From the IMG/VR virus record IMGVR_UViG_3300020213_000055, positions 1 to 39,628 of that record: DNA of 39,628 nt, one strand, 5' to 3'. A program made the position numbers and the translations under genes. Below the pieces are notes generated by a model, which made no database searches, was not told the DNA's origin, and saw only the letters and a program-made list of their open reading frames with translations. This document shows positions 21,910 to 39,628 of the stretch, in pieces; within the stretch, counting starts at the first letter, position 1; each line of letters starts with the position of its first letter. Origin of the DNA: a virus.

Positions 21910-22798
21910 TGTTAATTACGGCATTCCATACATGGGATCTAAAGGTTATGTAGCCCACAAAATATGCAGCATTTTTCCGAAGGCGGATAATTTCTACGAC
22001 CTATTCGGTGGTGGATTTTCAATCACTCACTTCATGCTTTTACATAGAGGAAATAACTACAAGCATTTTCATTTTAACGAGATCAAAGCTGGGAATATTG
22101 AATTAATAAAAGCCGCCATAGATGGTAAGTATAATTACAATGTTTTTAAGCCTTCGTTCATTACAAAAGAAGAGTTTTTAAGAGATAAAGATACCTGTCC
22201 GTACACGAGAATTATTTGGAGTTTTGGGAATAATCAGAAGGACTATTTATTCGGGAAAAATATAGAGTCTTATAAGGAGTCTATGCATAACGCTGTCGTT
22301 TTTAATATTTTTGACGACGTCTCTATACAAGCATTGGGAATACCTACTTTCCCAAAAAACTACTCAATAAAAGCAAGACGATTATTCATGAGACAAACCG
22401 TTGATAAAAAATCTGGCCGCGTGCTTCAGCTGATGCATTTGCAGCAACTTATTCAATTGGAGAGGTTGCAGCAATTGCAGAATTTGCAGAATTTGGAGCA
22501 GTTAAATTTTTCGGCTTTGAGTTACGAGAAAGTAAAAATAAAACCTAACTCGGTAATTTATTGTGATCCGCCCTACAGAGGTGCGACAGGATATTTAAAT
22601 GTTTTTGATCACGATAAGTTTTGGGAGTGGGTGATGGATCAAAAAGATCCTGTTTACGTTTCAGAATATATAGCGCCTAAAACTGCTCACGTAATTATGG
22701 CTATAAATAAAAAAGCGAATTTAGCGGCTACCGGACACACCGATAGTGTGGAAAAAATGTTTGCAAATGATGCGGGTAAAAAGGCGATGAATGGCTAA
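21902..22798 (+). CDS. Dam-like DNA adenine N6-methyltransferase, copy 1
   Basis: This 298-aa protein has class alpha (D12) motifs in order: motif X PYMGSK (9-14), motif I DLFGGG (33-38), motif IV DPPY (222-225). It should transfer methyl from SAM to adenine, probably for protection against restriction. Between I and IV, in the target recognition part (175-201), lies a Leu/Gln repeat tract (LQQLIQLERLQQLQNLQNLEQL, partly quoted). It is followed, with an 8-bp overlap, by a second copy. It shares with it long identical stretches on both sides of the variable part. Confidence 0.87.
   Translation: MPSVNYGIPYMGSKGYVAHKICSIFPKADNFYDLFGGGFSITHFMLLHRGNNYKHFHFNEIKAGNIELIKAAIDGKYNYNVFKPSFITKEEFLRDKDTCPYTRIIWSFGNNQKDYLFGKNIESYKESMHNAVVFNIFDDVSIQALGIPTFPKNYSIKARRLFMRQTVDKKSGRVLQLMHLQQLIQLERLQQLQNLQNLEQLNFSALSYEKVKIKPNSVIYCDPPYRGATGYLNVFDHDKFWEWVMDQKDPVYVSEYIAPKTAHVIMAINKKANLAATGHTDSVEKMFANDAGKKAMNG
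22464..22502 (+). repeat. Leu-Gln/Glu codon repeat in methyltransferase copy 1
   Basis: Units of the type TTGCAG / AATTTG repeat in frame, encoding L-x-x-L and L-Q-N steps at about residues 188-201. The tract is shorter than the matching one in copy 2 (23329-23412). Repeat units are multiples of 3 bp, so gain or loss keeps the frame. Confidence 0.8.
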
Positions 22799-23732
22799 TT
22801 ACGGCATTCCATACATGGGATCTAAAGGTTCCATAGCCCACGAAATATGCAGCATTTTCCCGAAGGCGGATAATTTCTATGATTTATTCGGTGGTGGATT
22901 TTCAATCACTCATTTCATGCTTTTACATAGAAGAAATAACTACAAGCATTTTCATTTTAACGAGCTACAATCTGGGAATATTGAGTTAATAAAAGCCGCA
23001 ATTGACGGTAAGTATAATTACAATGTTTTTAAGCCTAATTTTATTACGAGACAAGAGTTTTTCAGAGACAGGGATAATTGTGCATACACTAAACTTATTT
23101 GGAGTTTTGGGAATTGTCAGAGGACATATATCTTTGGGAAGCACATAGAATCCTATAAACATTCTCTGCATAACGCTGTCGTTTTTAATATTTTTGACGA
23201 AGTATCTATACAAGCATTAGGAATATCTACTTTCCCAAAAAACTCCTCAATAAAAGCGAGACGATTCTTCATGAGACAAGCCGTTAGGAAAAAAGTAGGG
23301 GAGGTACGGCAATTGGAGGGCTTGCAGAGCTTGCAGCAATTAGAGAGGTTGCAGAGGTTGCAGAATTTGGAGAATTTGGAGAATTTGGAGAATTTGCAGA
23401 ATTTGGAGCAGTTAAATTTTTCGGCTTTGAGTTACGAGAAAGTAAAAATAAAACCTAACTCGGTAATTTATTGTGATCCGCCATATAAAGGAACTGCTAA
23501 GTACCTCAGTGATTTTGATCACGATAAGTTTTGGGAGTGGGTGATGGATCAAAAAGATCCTGTTTTTGTTTCAGAATATGCAGCGCCTAAAACTGCACAC
23601 GTAATTATAGCTATCAATAAACAAGCAAGGTTAGCGGGTACCGGACCCACCGATAGCGTAGAAAAAATGTTTGCAAATGATGCGGGTAAAAAGGCGATTT
23701 TAAGCCCCTCCACAATCAATTCAAAGGGCTAA
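22791..23732 (+). CDS. Dam-like DNA adenine N6-methyltransferase, copy 2
   Basis: This 313-aa protein duplicates the previous gene. Motif X PYMGSK (7-12), motif I DLFGGG (31-36), motif IV DPPY (229-232) are all intact. The Leu/Gln/Glu repeat (174-207) is longer than in copy 1 and includes three LEN triplets in a row. Much of the rest is identical or conservatively changed, including the DNA from about 23398 to 23482. Different recognition regions may give a second specificity. The C-terminus differs from copy 1 in its last dozen residues. Confidence 0.87.
   Translation: MANYGIPYMGSKGSIAHEICSIFPKADNFYDLFGGGFSITHFMLLHRRNNYKHFHFNELQSGNIELIKAAIDGKYNYNVFKPNFITRQEFFRDRDNCAYTKLIWSFGNCQRTYIFGKHIESYKHSLHNAVVFNIFDEVSIQALGISTFPKNSSIKARRFFMRQAVRKKVGEVRQLEGLQSLQQLERLQRLQNLENLENLENLQNLEQLNFSALSYEKVKIKPNSVIYCDPPYKGTAKYLSDFDHDKFWEWVMDQKDPVFVSEYAAPKTAHVIIAINKQARLAGTGPTDSVEKMFANDAGKKAILSPSTINSKG
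23329..23412 (+). repeat. Expanded Leu-Glu/Gln-Asn codon repeat in methyltransferase copy 2
   Basis: The tract contains the 9-base unit TTGGAGAAT three times in a row (about 23369-23395), flanked by TTGCAGAAT and TTGGAGCAG. It encodes LENLENLENLQNLEQL. The perfect short units are typical of slippage-prone DNA, and changes of 9 bp keep the reading frame. Confidence 0.85.
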
Positions 23733-24322: not shown

Positions 24323-24572
24323 TCAACCTTGACTCTCGGGGTCAATTCAAACTAATGCTTCGCGCTGAATACCACGCGTCAACCTTGACTCTCGGGGTCA
24401 ATTCAAACTAATGCTTCGCGCTGAATACCACGCGTCAACCTTGACTCTCGGGGTCAATTCAAACTAATGCTTCGCGCTGAATACCACGCGTCAACCTTGA
24501 CTCTCGGGGTCAATTCAAACTAATGCTTCGCGCTGAATACCACGCGTCAACCTTGACTCTCGGGGTCAATTC
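24323..24572. repeat. 56-bp iteron array (4.5 copies)
   Basis: Four identical 56-bp units start at 24323, 24379, 24435 and 24491; a 26-base partial fifth starts at 24547. Each carries the inverted repeat TTGAC-N7-GTCAA (first at 24329-24345) and a second, wider pair ATTCA/TGAAT. There are no spacers, so this is not a CRISPR array. The arrangement, next to a small DNA-binding protein and an A+T-rich tract, is that of plasmid or phage replication iterons or a centromere-like site. Confidence 0.9.
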
Positions 24573-27691: not shown

Positions 27692-27955
27692 TCAATCGCT
27701 TTCGCTCCTGCTCCAACTCCAAATCCCGCTCCAACTCCAACTTAAGTTACGGCTACCGCTCCGACTCCATCCGCCGCTGCCGCTACCGCTACCGCTCAAG
27801 CCCCCTCTCCAGCTCCAACTTCCGCCCCAACTCCTGCCACCGCTACGGCACCCGCTATTGATCCACAACCCGCGCCTGCTCCAACTCCAAATCCCGCCCC
27901 TGTTTCCGCTTTTGATTCGGCACCAACTAGGTTTTCGATTTTGTGTTATTTGCAT
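27692..27955 (-). CDS. Gly/Ser/Trp/Arg-repeat protein, cassette 1, module 3
   Basis: This 87-aa ORF opens MQITQNRKPSW and continues as low-complexity dipeptides (GS, WS, RS). It ends SWSRSESD, much like module 3 of the second cassette. The ATG overlaps the stop of module 2 (ATGCAAATAA). Codon units are mostly six bases, such as GGGAGC and TGGAGC. The opposite strand reads as Ala/Pro/Thr repeats; the start codons, overlaps and direction of neighbours favour the minus strand. No known family. Confidence 0.6.
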   Translation of the reverse strand: MQITQNRKPSWCRIKSGNRGGIWSWSRRGLWINSGCRSGGRSWGGSWSWRGGLSGSGSGSGGWSRSGSRNLSWSWSGIWSWSRSESD

Positions 27956-28119
27956 TTGCTCACGCTACCGATCCCGCTCCTACTCCAAATCCAACTCCCG
28001 CCACCGCTACAGCTCCAACTCCAAATCCCGCTACTGCTCCCGCTCCCGCTCCCGCTACTGCTCACGCTCCCGCTCCAACTCCTTCTCCACTTCGGTTTTC
28101 GATATTGTGTTATTTGCAT
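27946..28119 (-). CDS. Gly/Ser/Trp/Arg-repeat protein, cassette 1, module 2
   Basis: This 57-aa ORF begins MQITQYRKPKWRRSWSGSVS and ends GIGSVSKCK. It is almost the same as module 2 of cassette 2 (29761-29940), with about 90 bp of nearly identical DNA. Its ATG overlaps the stop of module 1 and its stop overlaps the ATG of module 3, both through ATGCAAATAA. It has no Shine-Dalgarno of its own and probably depends on re-initiation. Confidence 0.6.
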   Translation of the reverse strand: MQITQYRKPKWRRSWSGSVSSSGSGSGSSSGIWSWSCSGGGSWIWSRSGIGSVSKCK

Positions 28120-28337
28120 TTGCTTACGCTACCGCTCCAACTACTGCTCCCGCACCCGCTCCCGCTCCAACTCAAACTCCAATCTAAGCTATCGCCCAAA
28201 CCCCAACTCACGCTTAAGCTAGCCCCCCAGATACAGCCCCCGCTTCGGCTACCGCTCCTGATTCGGCTCCCGCTCCCGCTACCGCTCACGCTTCGGCGCC
28301 CGCTCCATTTCGGTTTTCGATATTGAATTATTTGCAC
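28110..28337 (-). CDS. Gly/Ser/Trp/Arg-repeat protein, cassette 1, module 1
   Basis: This 75-aa ORF starts at a GTG within the last codons of the upstream gene (28328-28585) and begins MQIIQYRKPKWSGRRSVSGS. It ends SGSVSKCK. The middle is less regular (SGGCIWGASLSVSWGLGDSLD). It is the first member of a chain of three overlapping ORFs. Confidence 0.55.
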   Translation of the reverse strand: MQIIQYRKPKWSGRRSVSGSGSGSRIRSGSRSGGCIWGASLSVSWGLGDSLDWSLSWSGSGCGSSSWSGSVSKCK

Positions 28338-28585
28338 CCGAAACTCTCAATCGCCGAAAGTCTCACATACCAAAATTTGCAATTTAATTTCTGCTCATCT
28401 TTATATGATTTCAGAGTCCATTCGCCGGTCTCATAAACAATCGCTGGATCTTCAAGTTTTACACACGTTTTATCGACGCCTATTAATTTTCCTGTATAAA
28501 AATAATTAGCGCACATCAGCGTCACCTGTTGTCCTAATAAACTTGTTAGACCTTGTTTTTCTTCACTCGTTACTATCATTTGCAT
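28328..28585 (-). CDS. Small conserved phage protein
   Basis: This 85-aa protein contains LLGQQVTLMCANYFYTGKLIG, VKLEDPAIVYETGEW and VRLSAIESFGCK. It looks like a small beta-barrel and matches a group of short phage proteins with the pattern 'V.l.ca.Y.YtG.L.gv...cv.L.dp.iVYetG' that have no assigned function. It has a good ribosome binding site (AAGGAAAAAAACAA). The first repeat module starts inside its last codons. Confidence 0.75.
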   Translation of the reverse strand: MQMIVTSEEKQGLTSLLGQQVTLMCANYFYTGKLIGVDKTCVKLEDPAIVYETGEWTLKSYKDEQKLNCKFWYVRLSAIESFGCK

Positions 28586-28623
28586 TTGTTTTTTTCCTTT
28601 TCGTTATTTAAATCGATATCTTT

Positions 28624-28857
28624 TTATTTCCTGTGCTTATACGCAAGTGACAAAAGTTTATGAATCTCGCTGGCGCACGCACATGCCGCGTGAACAGTTT
28701 TAGGATTAATATTATCCTTCACTACACTTTTGCTTAATTCGAATAAGTGCTCTGCCAAGTTTATCGAGATAGGTGTTAGCGTCTTTCTCTCCTTTTCTAA
28801 CAAGGGAGAGTTCTCGTTTAAGTCCATGGAGCGGGTTTTTTCTGACACTTGATTCAT
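28624..28857 (-). CDS. Small hypothetical protein
   Basis: This 77-aa protein contains LTPISINLAEHLFELSKSVV and TVHAACACASEIHKLLSLAY, a helical pattern with 'naacncaseI.kll.l' seen in other small phage proteins of unknown function. It starts after GAGGAAATGTT. Its first 146 bases overlap the end of the basic ORF at 28712-29197 in another frame. Confidence 0.68.
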   Translation of the reverse strand: MNQVSEKTRSMDLNENSPLLEKERKTLTPISINLAEHLFELSKSVVKDNINPKTVHAACACASEIHKLLSLAYKHRK

Positions 28858-29197
28858 AACATTTCCTCAATTTCTTGATTCTGTTTTTCTTATACCAGCG
28901 TCTATGCAAACCATTCAGGGAAGCCCGTTTCATTATAGCCTCCCACTTCAATGGGTTTTTGGAGCGCCACGCGTTCACTCTCATAGTTTGATATTTGGGG
29001 TCTACCTCTTTTTTCCTGAGTGCCCATTCTCTCCACTGTCGCCTCCTCGATTCCCTGTACGCCGGGTTCTCTTGTCTCTGCGCCGCCGCGTATTTTCTCT
29101 TGTATATTCTTTTGTATTTTTTTGAGCCTTTGGCTAATCCGAGACTCGCTAACTCCGAAGCAATCGCCAACCTCTTTGTTTTTGAAACCCCATACAT
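28712..29197 (-). CDS. Basic protein overlapping the sigma-like gene
   Basis: The ORF is 161 aa. From about residue 27 it reads KKYKRIYKRKYAAAQRQENP and AYRESRRRQWREWALRKKEVDP, typical of basic phage proteins with repeated 'Y....R....W...N' units. It overlaps the sigma-like gene by 296 bp in the +1 frame. A run of seven A (T7 at 29117-29123 on the plus strand) at the point where the two frames both read well suggests a fusion by frameshift or slippage, or else a one-base assembly error. The true start is unknown. Confidence 0.5.
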   Translation of the reverse strand: MYGVSKTKRLAIASELASLGLAKGSKKYKRIYKRKYAAAQRQENPAYRESRRRQWREWALRKKEVDPKYQTMRVNAWRSKNPLKWEAIMKRASLNGLHRRWYKKNRIKKLRKCYESSVRKNPLHGLKRELSLVRKGEKDANTYLDKLGRALIRIKQKCSEG

Positions 29198-29549
29198 ATA
29201 TTAAAAAGAAAATTACTCTTTCTTCTCCCTGTAAGACTTCAACAGCTCGTTTAAAATCATACCCATTGATTCTAGCCTCCTCGCTTGATCCCGTAGAAGA
29301 AAGTTGTATTTCTTCCTCGTATTCGTCGTCCAATCGATTGAGCAATGGATCACGGCAGACGCCTCCAACAGTTCGTCCATAAATACCTCGAATAGCCTCG
29401 ATAACTCTTTGCCTTGCGGTTTGTTTCCAGTGTGGGTTTTTGAGGCCTCCCAAATAAGCCTCCTGAGCGATATCTTCACAGTCTCTCTGAAATCCAAGCC
29501 CTCTAGCAATGCTTCGATATCGGCGCAGCAATTTTTCATGATCTTGCAT
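28902..29549 (-). CDS. Sigma-70-like RNA polymerase sigma factor
   Basis: This 215-aa ORF has a region 2-like segment (LGFQRDCEDIAQEAYLGGL, about 18-36), then QTARQRVIEAIRGIYGRT, shared by phage sigma-like proteins, and a region 4 helix-turn-helix (EERVIFFLIYVWGFKNKEVGDCFGVSESRISQ in pieces, 108-140). After residue 150 it no longer looks like a sigma factor. It may redirect host polymerase to late phage promoters. Ribosome binding site is poor: AAGG directly touches the ATG. Confidence 0.75.
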   Translation of the reverse strand: MQDHEKLLRRYRSIARGLGFQRDCEDIAQEAYLGGLKNPHWKQTARQRVIEAIRGIYGRTVGGVCRDPLLNRLDDEYEEEIQLSSTGSSEEARINGYDFKRAVEVLQGEERVIFFLIYVWGFKNKEVGDCFGVSESRISQRLKKIQKNIQEKIRGGAETREPGVQGIEEATVERMGTQEKRGRPQISNYESERVALQKPIEVGGYNETGFPEWFA

Positions 29550-29569
29550 CCTTTTTGTTATTTAAAATT

Positions 29570-29770
29570 TCATTCGCTCCCGCTCCGACTCCAACTTCGC
29601 ATTCCGCCACCGCTCCAACTCACGCTCCAACTTCTTCTTCCGCTCCCGCTCCAGCTACTGCTCCCGCTCCGACTCCAACTCCAACTCCAACTCCCGCTCG
29701 TGCTCCAACTCCAACTCCCGCTCCTGCTCTTCCTACCGGCCTGCGGTTTTCGATTTTGTGTTATTTGCAT
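29570..29770 (-). CDS. Gly/Ser/Trp/Arg-repeat protein, cassette 2, module 3
   Basis: This 66-aa ORF begins MQITQNRKPQAGRKSRSGSW and ends SWSRSGSE. It parallels module 3 of cassette 1: same N-terminus (MQITQNRKP), same type of ending without SKCK. Its ATG overlaps the stop of module 2 through ATGCAAATAA. The sigma-like gene follows 20 bp later. Confidence 0.6.
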   Translation of the reverse strand: MQITQNRKPQAGRKSRSGSWSWSTSGSWSWSWSRSGSSSWSGSGRRSWSVSWSGGGMRSWSRSGSE

Positions 29771-29940
29771 TTGCTCACGCTACCGATCCCGCTCCTACTC
29801 CAAATCCAACTCCCGCCACCGCTACCGCTCCAACTCCAAATCCCGCTACTGCTCACGCTCCCGCTCCCGCTCCCGCTCACGCTCACGCTCCCGCTCCAAC
29901 TCCTTCTCCACTTCGGTTTTCGATATTGTGTTATTTGCAT
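29761..29940 (-). CDS. Gly/Ser/Trp/Arg-repeat protein, cassette 2, module 2
   Basis: This 59-aa ORF begins MQITQYRKPKWRRSWSGSVS and ends GIGSVSKCK, differing from cassette 1 module 2 only by a few substitutions and two extra residues. It is linked to both neighbours by ATGCAAATAA overlaps. A longer reading from a TTG at 29955 is possible but less likely. Confidence 0.6.
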   Translation of the reverse strand: MQITQYRKPKWRRSWSGSVSVSGSGSGSVSSSGIWSWSGSGGGSWIWSRSGIGSVSKCK

Positions 29941-30068
29941 TTGCTCCTGCTCCAACTCCTGCCACCGCTACCGCTCCAACTCCCGCTCACGCTACGGCTC
30001 CCGCTCCCGCTCACGCTACGGCTCCCGCTCCTGTTCCACTTCGGTTTTCGATTTTGTGTTATTTTCAT
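29931..30068 (-). CDS. Gly/Ser/Trp/Arg-repeat protein, cassette 2, module 1
   Basis: This 45-aa ORF begins MKITQNRKPKWNRSGSRSVS and ends SWSRSKCK. Its ATG overlaps the stop of the exonuclease gene as ATGA (30065-30068), so it is coupled to that gene. It is too short for most gene finders but continues the chain pattern exactly. Confidence 0.58.
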   Translation of the reverse strand: MKITQNRKPKWNRSGSRSVSGSGSRSVSGSWSGSGGRSWSRSKCK

Positions 30069-30946
30069 TTTGGATTTGTGACCTTCCAAAACTTTGTACT
30101 CGGCTTTCTGTATTGTTCTAAATCTAACCCACTCAGTACTTCTATTTTAGAATAATCAACATTCCCAATTCTGCTCTCGTGAGTAATTTTAATTCCAGCG
30201 CACAACAATCTAACGTAACCGCTTTTTCTGGCGTGCTCTAATAAGGTTTCCTTAAGGTGATCCCTCTCAATTTCCATCGCCTCTATTTGTTTGCACAATC
30301 TTTTATAGGCGGAGGATTCGAGAGACAAGCCTGTCAACGGCACAAAATCTTTATCGGATAGTTTAGGCGGCACCCGTTTTAAAACATTCTCATTCCAGAA
30401 AATATTCTCCAAATTAAAAAGATTTATTTGATATTCTGGATCGGGCATTACCTTGATGTGCGCGAGTTTTTTAGGATCTAAAATTTTATCGTGTCTGCCA
30501 TCGTACGGATACGAAAGGTAATGACACACAACCGCATTGGTAGCCATCAAACAGTGTTGTAACTGCGCTACATATTTATCAGGAACAAAACCCATTTTTG
30601 TACCCTCCCAATCTGCCTTGCCTGAAAATTTAATCTCAATGATTTCGGTTTTACACTCCGAATAACCGTCTAAAGATGCTCCTAGCCATGGGAAATCCTC
30701 TCTGACTACCATAGCGGGTTGATATGATTTGCCCGTTAGCATCTCGAATAGCGCACGGATTCTAGGTTCTAAGTCTATACCGACTTGCATAGCGTAATTT
30801 GTTTCGCTGATTGTAGGCTCTGCTAAAATTTTTTCCTCGTATAGTTGTAATATAGTTTTATACGGGCTGTTACCCATTATTATAGGAGCTTCCGAACCGC
30901 CGATCCTATTGTGCCGTTTTTTTAAAAATTCTAAATTATCTGACAT
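30065..30946 (-). CDS. YqaJ-type recombination exonuclease
   Basis: This 293-aa protein has the lambda-exonuclease-like YqaJ features: NRIGGSEAPIIMGNSPYKT (13-31), LEPRIRALFE, then WLGASLDGYSE (D93) and EIIEIKFSG (E104, K106), the PD-(D/E)xK active site. It would resect DNA ends for annealing with the Sak4-like ATPase and SSB encoded at 31230-32640. The start at 30946 has GAGGTGGGG upstream; a reading to 31000 lacks it. It is the first gene of the minus-strand early operon. Confidence 0.87.
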   Translation of the reverse strand: MSDNLEFLKKRHNRIGGSEAPIIMGNSPYKTILQLYEEKILAEPTISETNYAMQVGIDLEPRIRALFEMLTGKSYQPAMVVREDFPWLGASLDGYSECKTEIIEIKFSGKADWEGTKMGFVPDKYVAQLQHCLMATNAVVCHYLSYPYDGRHDKILDPKKLAHIKVMPDPEYQINLFNLENIFWNENVLKRVPPKLSDKDFVPLTGLSLESSAYKRLCKQIEAMEIERDHLKETLLEHARKSGYVRLLCAGIKITHESRIGNVDYSKIEVLSGLDLEQYRKPSTKFWKVTNPK

Positions 30947-30972: not shown

Positions 30973-31000
30973 AAAATATTTCATTTGAAATTAAAGTCAA
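30973..31000 (-). promoter_or_regulatory. Early minus-strand promoter
   Basis: Read on the minus strand, TTGACT (31000-30995), a 16-bp spacer and TATTTT (30978-30973) form a good promoter 27 bp upstream of the exonuclease start. Its -35 is part of the inverted repeat at 30996-31013. Confidence 0.6.
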
Positions 31001-37935: not shown

Positions 37936-39345
37936 TTACCAAAATGGAATGTAACGATCAGTTCCGTTGATTGTAATTTTAACGTAACCAACGGCATTTC
38001 CGGCGGTTCCAGTTGGACCATTTGCAAGAGTCAAAGCGTCCGCGCCCGTTGTGCCCGTGTCGGTATTTAAAATATGCTTTGGGTTTTCTGATGTCGCGCC
38101 TAAAGTAATAATCCCACCGTCAGCAATTTTCATTACTACCGTTGAATCATCTGCAAATCTTGCGATGTCTTGGGCTTGGGCATTGTTTGTAACATAGAGC
38201 GCAGAAATAATTCCACTAGGCGGGAATACAGTATAATTATTGCTTGGCGCTAATTCAAAAAATCCGCCAATAGCCGTTGATGGTGTTCCGCCCGTTCCCG
38301 CCGATCCTTGAGTTCCTATTAGTCGTGGATTGCTACCAACCCCCTCACTAGCAATGCCTACCGCTCCGTAAACATAATTTGCCTTCGAGCCAAGAAATGC
38401 CCCTCCTCCGTGCGTGGCACCCGCCGCTGTACTGTTTTCTGCAGAATACCCGCTAGATCTGACGCCCCAATTTCCTCCGCTGCCATCGGCATACCCTACT
38501 TGGGTATTCCCGCCCGTATTATTTAGAATAGTCATTCCCACCACATCGGTAGTTATGGTTCCGCTTAGGGTGCTTGAGTACGATCCGGCATCGGATAATG
38601 TAACGCTAGAATTTTGTAACGTAGATCCTCCGGTGCCATCAGCGCGAAGTAGTGCGTTATCAGTTGCCCCGGTAGATCCGCTAATGCTACCGCCCGAAAC
38701 AAAAGTAAGATTGCCTACGCCGTCTGTAGACAGAAACTGTCCATTAGTTCCATCGGTTAACGGATAAATAATGCCCGATACAGTTATTCCAGCAAAACTA
38801 GGACTATCGGGAATATTCAAATTCTGATTGAATGGATTGGGAGGATCAACAAAAGTAAGATTATTAGCCCCGTCTGTAGATAGAACTTGTCCATTAGTTC
38901 CATCGGCTACCGGATAAATAAGGCCCGCTACAGTTATTCCAGCAAAACTAGGACTATCGGTAGTACTTAAATTCTGATCGAACGGATTGGGAGGATCAAC
39001 AAAAGTAAGATTATTAGCCCCGTCTGTAGATAGAACTTGCCAAGCAGTTCCATCGGCTACCGGATAAATAAGGCCCGCTACAGTTATTCCAGCAAAACTA
39101 GGAGTATCGGTAGTATTCAAATCCTGATTGAATGGATTTCCACCGCCATTTTCCCAAGAATTACCGTCCCACCCGTAAACTAACCCACTATCTTGAGCTA
39201 CGCGAGCATCCCCCACGCTATTTCCAGAAGAAGGTAACGCGGCAATGTTAGCTACGGAAGGCTTCCATGTAGGAGCACCGCCCATCAGAGAAACATTTCC
39301 TAATGCGCACGCAGTAAAAAATAATAGTATAAAAAATGATTTCAT
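37936..39345 (-). CDS. Fibre-like protein with signal peptide and 50-aa repeats
   Basis: This 469-aa protein has an N-terminal signal peptide-like stretch (MKSFFILLFFTACALG), then three 50-aa repeats (DTPSFAGITVAGLIYPVADG, GQVLSTDGANNLTFVDPPNP), then Ser/Thr/Gly-rich beta sequence and a C-terminus with NGPTGTAGNAVGYVKITING. The repeat motif 'VLSTDGANNLTFV' is common in fibre shafts. The start at 39345 has GGAG 6 bases upstream. A signal peptide on a fibre is unexpected and its cleavage would put it outside the cytoplasm; alternatively it is an attached adhesin. Confidence 0.72.
   Translation of the reverse strand: MKSFFILLFFTACALGNVSLMGGAPTWKPSVANIAALPSSGNSVGDARVAQDSGLVYGWDGNSWENGGGNPFNQDLNTTDTPSFAGITVAGLIYPVADGTAWQVLSTDGANNLTFVDPPNPFDQNLSTTDSPSFAGITVAGLIYPVADGTNGQVLSTDGANNLTFVDPPNPFNQNLNIPDSPSFAGITVSGIIYPLTDGTNGQFLSTDGVGNLTFVSGGSISGSTGATDNALLRADGTGGSTLQNSSVTLSDAGSYSSTLSGTITTDVVGMTILNNTGGNTQVGYADGSGGNWGVRSSGYSAENSTAAGATHGGGAFLGSKANYVYGAVGIASEGVGSNPRLIGTQGSAGTGGTPSTAIGGFFELAPSNNYTVFPPSGIISALYVTNNAQAQDIARFADDSTVVMKIADGGIITLGATSENPKHILNTDTGTTGADALTLANGPTGTAGNAVGYVKITINGTDRYIPFW
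38687..39136 (-). repeat. Three 150-bp tandem repeats in the fibre gene
   Basis: Units of exactly 150 bp (50 codons), with the word GGATT[GT] recurring at 38835, 38985 and 39135. The inner two are nearly identical; the C-terminal one has diverged (SGIIYPLTDG). In-frame copy number changes would change shaft length. Confidence 0.8.
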
Positions 39346-39507: not shown

Positions 39508-39627
39508 TTATAAACAAGAAATACGCAATAGCAATCTGCGAATTCTAACTATTCTAAAAATAACAAATCTCTTTGATGCAATTTTTTTAAGCCTATCCTG
39601 TAACTCTTCTTTTGATATAATTTTCAT
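39508..39627 (-). CDS. 39-aa micro-ORF, copy 2 of the tandem array
   Basis: Its start region lies in the 60-base overlap, so it is also seen, truncated, at 1-59. It is the middle copy in the circle. See the copies at 85-204 and 39363-39482; all three keep an intact frame, start and stop. Confidence 0.4.
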   Translation of the reverse strand: MKIISKEELQDRLKKIASKRFVIFRIVRIRRLLLRISCL

Positions 39628-39628
39628 A

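Follow-up and report, generated by a model that had tools for sequence, protein, structure and literature searches.

Dipeptide-repeat genes adjoining predicted Sm-like genes in phages

The viral IMG/VR record IMGVR_UViG_3300020213_000055 (39,628 nucleotides, analysed over its full length and called the window below) carries six short open reading frames (ORFs) on its minus strand at 27692-30068. They encode dipeptide repeats with serine at every second position, are arranged as two cassettes (A and B) of three modules, and are each open in the frame of the hexamer unit. We conclude that the six micro-ORFs are genuine genes. The first module of cassette A overlaps the end of a gene for an 85-aa protein with a predicted Sm-like fold. 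It is practically certain that the stop of this gene normally overlaps or abuts a Ser-X ORF with a basic start, that the grammar of the repeat protein is under selection and that two other families of Sm-like genes are arranged alike. The favored explanation, which we give a probability of about 0.5, is a split Sm system, in which a folded Sm-type subunit and a translationally coupled, multivalent low-complexity chain would assemble with RNA or single-stranded DNA (ssDNA).

Relatives of the 85-aa protein were gathered from IMG/VR by a search with the protein and then with its alignment, down to ~35% identity; an initial scan with a 15-base pattern had been too unspecific. The family set contained 45 distinct proteins, including L132 and one deposited phage (L150), and 44 of them had readable downstream DNA. 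A Ser-X repeat ORF was found 3' of the gene in 41 of these 44, most commonly at a spacing of -4 (ATGA). The three exceptions were L193, which retains a 15-aa remnant, L194, where the arrays lie upstream of the gene, and L212. Under a strict distance rule the same pairing was observed in 35/41 cases, compared with 5/267 control ORFs from these loci; of the five positive controls, three or more are further real arrays (L161, L194 and L203). In another control count, 2 of 332 ORFs had a repeat ORF. The placement of the Ser-X start on or next to the 85-aa stop indicates that the repeat ORF is positioned for translational coupling. Basic and aromatic residues are typical of its start (MRGxKQK[YW]R or MQITQYRKPKW); the first 12 residues have a median charge of +4, and a loose start motif was present in 37 of 53 ORFs. 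A sister contig (L056 = L128 = L160) encodes an identical 85-aa protein with the same overlap; behind it, repeat ORFs of 75 aa and 15 aa and then a ribbon-helix-helix-like gene follow, each overlapping the next. Two modules were found in L163, L211 and L150, three in L200 and four in the L145/L195 locus, and the genes after the arrays vary among phages. One relative (L159) comes from a contig that binning had assigned to a Thaumarchaeota genome, probably phage DNA or a binning error. A blastn match in Vibrio phage 1.185.O was discarded as an unrelated Ala-Pro repeat within a larger gene.

The codons used for serine show what is being conserved. In the arrays of the window and of a small number of relatives, L160 and L161 among them, all serines are AGC or AGT (AGY), and in most relatives they are TCN; the nearest outside relative, L162 (76% identity), is already entirely TCN. 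No single-base route between AGY and TCN stays serine. On a tree of the 85-aa protein, built from few columns, the serine-codon state switched at least seven times, with four switches forced by strongly supported branches. Because the same repeat grammar is maintained over these unrelated codons and through this many switches, selection acts on the protein. Inversion of an array was rejected as the source of the switch, as inverted AGC-NGG gives CCN-GCT and not TCN. An earlier note on this DNA, made from the sequence of the window alone, had argued for selection on translation and had named broken frames or overlaps in related genomes as grounds for giving it up. The argument is supported by the presence of the same protein repeat, at the same place in related phages, in two mutually unreachable serine codon sets, and the frames and overlaps are kept in the relatives while the module number ranges from 1 to 4.

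The residues between the serines point in the same direction. X is mostly Gly, Trp or Arg in the Ser arrays, with the one-step neighbors Glu, Gln and Ala rare; in the Gly arrays described below X is Ser, Tyr, Asp or Asn, with Ala, Thr and His rare. Within arrays, variation is highest at the first base of the X codon (~1.5 bits) and lower at third positions (0.3-0.9 bits), the pattern expected of slippage that homogenises the DNA as the mixture of X residues is retained. Of the other two sense frames within 54 repeat ORFs, one is open in 1 ORF and the other in 14, so both are usually closed. These 54 ORFs contain 374 Trp (TGG) codons, 341 of them beyond codon 12, and zero in-frame TGA or TAG, which is supportive only, since the ORFs were chosen by their repeat frame and are stop-free by definition. 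From the selection on the repeat we infer that the ORFs are translated.

For the partner protein, a structural model was obtained with AlphaFold2 (predicted local distance difference test score, pLDDT, 82; predicted template modeling score, pTM, 0.72). The model has a helix followed by strands, the order of the Sm fold (N-terminal helix, five-stranded bent sheet), and its best listed PDB matches, with a template modeling score (TM) of ~0.7, are all Sm/Lsm or spliceosomal small nuclear ribonucleoprotein (snRNP) chains (Lsm/Sm, E 2.6e-4, TM 0.71). The 85-aa protein thus very probably adopts a predicted Sm/Lsm fold, and an Sm1-like stretch, GxLxGVD/NxxxVxL, is present in the family. In a viral structure library, models of the DUF6948 family were among the matches to the 85-aa model. 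The listed best matches of the DUF6948 model (pLDDT 90) are likewise Sm/Lsm or snRNP chains, with a low query-normalised TM (0.38-0.45) that results from its greater length.

DUF6948 genes show the same arrangement. The lead was a blastn match to Pectobacterium phage Ymer, in which a DUF6948 gene (PF22253, 6.5e-31) is overlapped by a Gly-Tyr/Asp/Ser repeat ORF. A scan of IMG/VR for DUF6948 yielded 57 distinct proteins, 56 with downstream DNA, and in 56 of 56 a Gly-X ORF overlaps or closely trails the gene. Many of these ORFs start with M(S/P)KLNKP, and most are acidic (Gly-Tyr/Asp/Ser/Asn)n repeats. The pair is also present in Vibrio phage IKEMa6-1, Iodobacter PhiPLPE, Chlorobiaceae phage CV-1-33 and others; L153, with a DUF6948 gene and no repeat ORF, is an exception. 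The DUF6948 protein of L265, a locus with an overlapping Gly-X ORF, has a 100% identity match in a Neisseria gonorrhoeae sequence, by which the pair would be located in gonococcal prophages. An unannotated DUF6948 gene was also seen at 3001-3276 of L294; this gonococcal record, 2.17 Mb in size and evidently the chromosome, is listed as a plasmid and has the gene in three places. In a gut phage (L155, 2282-2803), the Gly-X stretch behind the DUF6948 gene is short and is joined to a domain of unassigned family that looks folded.

A third family, with a KIDEVEYVRKDS start and a WGTTKGLGE core, has a Gly-X ORF downstream of it in 18 of 19 distinct cases and includes members in the Rheinheimera Barba phages and Rhodobacter RcapNL. 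The label Sm-like for this family comes from the DUF6948-like core of some members. Cultured phages with the pairing include those of Pectobacterium, Iodobacter, Rheinheimera and Rhodobacter. In L203, a third-family/Gly-X pair and an 85-aa/Ser-X pair lie within 1.3 kb of each other. A DUF6948 gene and an 85-aa gene were not found together in one phage (0/38 and 0/35 records, with positive controls both ways), where the records may be fragments. With a positive control included, no PF22253 match was obtained for the 85-aa protein or anywhere across the window.

The repeat chains are ~25-130 residues long, with a small residue at every other position and a mixture of aromatic, charged and small ones in between. 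The Ser type has a median net charge of +10.5 and 13.7% aromatic residues, the Gly type a median of -6 and 12.5%. The products of the micro-ORFs are probably disordered dipeptide-repeat proteins. In a split Sm system, coupled translation would supply the folded subunit and the chain together. For the steps beyond coupled translation, we infer that the predicted Sm-like subunit would form a ring that binds RNA or ssDNA, that the repeat chain would act as a detached low-complexity tail with many weak contacts to the ring and the nucleic acid, and that a larger RNA- or DNA-protein assembly would be built in infection. In the window, multiplication of the chain genes to two three-module cassettes might provide a higher dose or more variants. 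The split system is favored because the chains have the composition of multivalent low-complexity chains and because known Sm proteins and Hfq carry covalent tails. Genomic context lends it mild support: the neighbors in some phages are an exonuclease gene and an erf gene, recE or an exodeoxyribonuclease gene, and an SSB/Erf/exonuclease VIII block is near the pair in Ymer. Among the roles guessed in the earlier note, nucleic-acid binding would be the most likely. An assembly role for the Sm-like protein together with the repeat chain is put forward tentatively. Still more speculative is the general proposal that tailed phages possess a widespread, undescribed Sm-type ring with a separate sticker-spacer polymer, in basic and acidic versions, that builds an RNA- or DNA-protein condensate at the time of infection. 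If true, this would be a viral counterpart of the tailed Sm proteins, the tail being its own fast-evolving gene.

Several observations weigh against such a system. In the 85-aa alignment, Val or Ile mostly takes the place of the canonical RNA-contacting Asn of the Sm1 motif, so that RNA binding may be absent or different. As no Pfam Sm match was found for the 85-aa protein either, and no chain in a PDB sequence search matched it or DUF6948, we use the label "Sm-like fold" and not "Sm protein". Profile-profile comparison of the 85-aa and DUF6948 families with hhalign gave a probability of 6-8%; sequence homology was not established, and any relation between the two would come from the predicted fold alone. 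No natural fusion of an Sm domain and a repeat chain was seen in the data collected here. On its own, the acidic Gly type would not be expected to bind nucleic acid. Finally, cassette B adjoins an exonuclease gene and not the Sm-like gene.

Among the alternatives, a silk-like or gelling structural microprotein comes closest, although we consider it unlikely. Here alternating Ser or Gly would pack as beta sheet and form a scaffold or coat independent of the Sm-like protein. The strict small-residue alternation is the silk pattern, the composition is strongly constrained, and one Gly-type ORF was named "lamprin" by its depositors. However, a predicted Sm-like protein, and not a virion gene, is the constant neighbor, some phages have an exonuclease, erf, recE or exodeoxyribonuclease gene nearby, and many members have a high net charge that is of opposite sign in the two types. 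Less probable again is that coupled translation itself is the function, with the ORFs as regulatory leaders or spacers that tune the Sm-like or the next gene and the peptide as a by-product. The stop-start overlaps and the chains of 2-4 modules would fit, as would the handover of some modules to an ordinary gene (the ribbon-helix-helix-like gene that follows the repeat ORF and 15-aa ORF in L056/L128), but the amino acids are conserved over different codons, the Ser and Gly types have no common codon grammar, and the downstream gene differs among phages. We think it improbable that the chains are membrane-active peptides for killing, lysis or superinfection exclusion. In the Ser type, ~26% of residues are Arg or Trp, and R/W-rich antimicrobial peptides have a high content of both, yet the Gly type, found at the same place, is for the most part acidic and Tyr-containing instead of basic and Trp-containing, and the pairing with a predicted Sm fold would be left unexplained. 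Untranslated repetitive DNA or RNA, such as replication-slippage debris or a Shine-Dalgarno-like GGAG sponge, can practically be dismissed despite the GGAG-rich hexamers of the window, the mostly NGG X codons and the clear expansion and contraction of the arrays: the serine codon switch refutes plain repeat DNA as a full explanation, most relatives have TCN hexamers without GGAG, the Gly type uses mainly GGC with TAC/TCC/GAC/AAC-like codons, and frame, place and amino-acid grammar are common to arrays that share no DNA motif and are not interconverted by inversion. An Rfam search of the window gave no RNA family match.

Within the window, the two chains of three short ORFs described in the earlier note were borne out by the ORF coordinates (Table 1), and N-termini, dipeptide units, module order and endings are all as it had described them. 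Both chains also begin on the end of an ordinary gene, as claimed: cassette A on the final 10 bases of the 85-aa gene, which with module A1 forms an Sm-like stop overlapping a (small-X)n ORF, and cassette B with an ATGA on the TGA of the exonuclease gene. What the note had missed about these neighbors is that the 85-aa gene is a constant, predicted Sm-type partner and that other families follow the same rule. The conserved N-termini of the modules held as well, with the correction that A1 starts at GTGCAAATAA (GTG) and not at ATG. The SKCK ending lost its standing as independent evidence. The handover of B1, B2, A1 and A2 is AGCAAATGCAAATAA, which in one frame reads Ser-Lys-Cys-Lys-stop and in the next contains ATG-CAA-ATA; the conserved ending and the conserved start are thus one fact, and SKCK is simply what the overlap encodes in its alternative frame. 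Between A2 and B2 there are two nonsynonymous codon changes, one 6-base indel and no synonymous change. To judge from these differences they are recent copies, and conservation within the window alone is therefore weak proof.

Table 1. Repeat modules and adjoining genes in the window.
Feature	Position	Strand	Description
Module A1	28110..28337	-	75-aa Ser-X repeat ORF; starts with GTG; shares 10 bases with end of 85-aa gene
Module A2	27946..28119	-	57-aa Ser-X repeat ORF; ATGCAAATAA overlap with A1
Module A3	27692..27955	-	87-aa Ser-X repeat ORF; ATGCAAATAA overlap with A2; C-terminal WSRSESD
Module B1	29931..30068	-	45-aa Ser-X repeat ORF; ATGA overlap with exonuclease stop
Module B2	29761..29940	-	59-aa Ser-X repeat ORF; near-copy of A2
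Module B3	29570..29770	-	66-aa Ser-X repeat ORF; C-terminal WSRSGSE
85-aa Sm-like gene (IVYETGEW family)	28328..28585	-	Constant partner; at least 44 distinct relatives; predicted model; PDB matches
RecE/YqaJ-type exonuclease	30065..30946	-	PF09588 9.5e-19; phrog_434 3.3e-43; stop overlaps cassette B
Sigma-70 region-4-like gene	28902..29549	-	Between the cassettes, context only; PF04545 1.3e-5, barely above cut-off

The exonuclease has 293 aa counted from ATG, and its frame is open up to a TTG at 31000. It was rejected as the constant partner of the repeats, as a search with its sequence yielded no relatives and just 4 of the 38 records that contain the 85-aa gene have a YqaJ domain. Its C terminus, EQYRKPSTKFWKV, resembles the micro-ORF start QYRKPKW, which may be a coincidence or a shared docking motif. 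A 108-aa ORF (29213-29539, minus strand) is nested in the sigma-like gene in another frame, and both frames are open in L056 and L161; the two form a candidate dual-coding region. A basic 161-aa ORF (28712-29197, minus strand) overlaps the end of the sigma-like gene. In the sister phage L161 (2189-2470), what is left of the basic 161-aa gene after truncation forms an in-frame fusion with the tail of a Ser-X array, a sign that arrays may drive rearrangement.

Elsewhere in the record, positions 1-60 and 39569-39628 are identical over at least 60 bases, so that the record probably represents an entire phage genome closed to a circle. It has a 145-base tandem repeat at its end, and a 150-base tandem repeat (2.9 copies, 90%) lies at 38698-39138 within a long tail-fiber-like ORF. 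A 56-base tandem repeat of 4.5 exact copies (24323-24572), near the switch between plus- and minus-strand genes, may represent replication or regulatory iterons. Two adjacent methyltransferase-like genes contain short Leu-Gln/Leu-Glu/Leu-Asn repeat inserts of 9-base units (22454-22503 and 23313-23408); in the L056 homologue the repeat is a different one, so this insert varies.

The pairing of Sm-like and repeat ORFs in many unrelated phages is apparently undescribed. In Pfam, PHROGs and NCBIfam, no match over the cut-off was obtained for the 85-aa protein or for the repeat ORFs of the window and its relatives, which gave weak low-complexity matches only. In the open-access literature no paper on the pairing, DUF6948 or the repeat strings was found, and an earlier description elsewhere is possible, as subscription papers and preprints were outside the scope. 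Individual Gly-X ORFs are already in the databases as hypothetical proteins; what is new is that the pairing follows a rule, that an Sm fold is predicted on both sides and that selection operates at the protein level. Low-complexity ORFs are usually discarded as repeat noise. Here one class of them is under protein-level selection and is tied to predicted Sm-like genes in very different phages, cultured ones included. It offers a compact, testable system for the role of dipeptide polymers in cells, for the use of Sm-type proteins and condensates by phages, and for how a protein grammar survives repeated rebuilding of its DNA.

The DUF6948 pairs resemble the pair in the window in their predicted Sm-like fold, their overlapping dipeptide-repeat ORF and their mixture of aromatic, charged and small X residues; they differ in that the repeat is Gly-based and mostly acidic, whereas that of the 85-aa partner is Ser-based and basic. 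Low-complexity tails are carried covalently on Sm-type cores in Lsm4, SmD1/D3/B (RG tails) and Hfq (C-terminal tail). These proteins likewise combine an Sm-type core with a charged, repetitive, disordered chain, in basic RG-like and acidic Hfq-like versions. In contrast, the chain in the phages is a separate overlapping gene of strict dipeptide form with Trp or Tyr, and the 85-aa family, whose RNA binding is putative, lacks a conserved Sm1 Asn. A further parallel is found in the archaeal Borgs, where fast-evolving tandem DNA repeats are reported to create disordered protein regions in many genes (PMC9879509). Fast-evolving DNA repeats yield disordered protein segments in both cases. Whereas the regions reported for the Borgs are spread over many genes, the phage repeats encode free-standing microproteins tied to particular gene families, and their repeat grammar is kept as the DNA unit changes.

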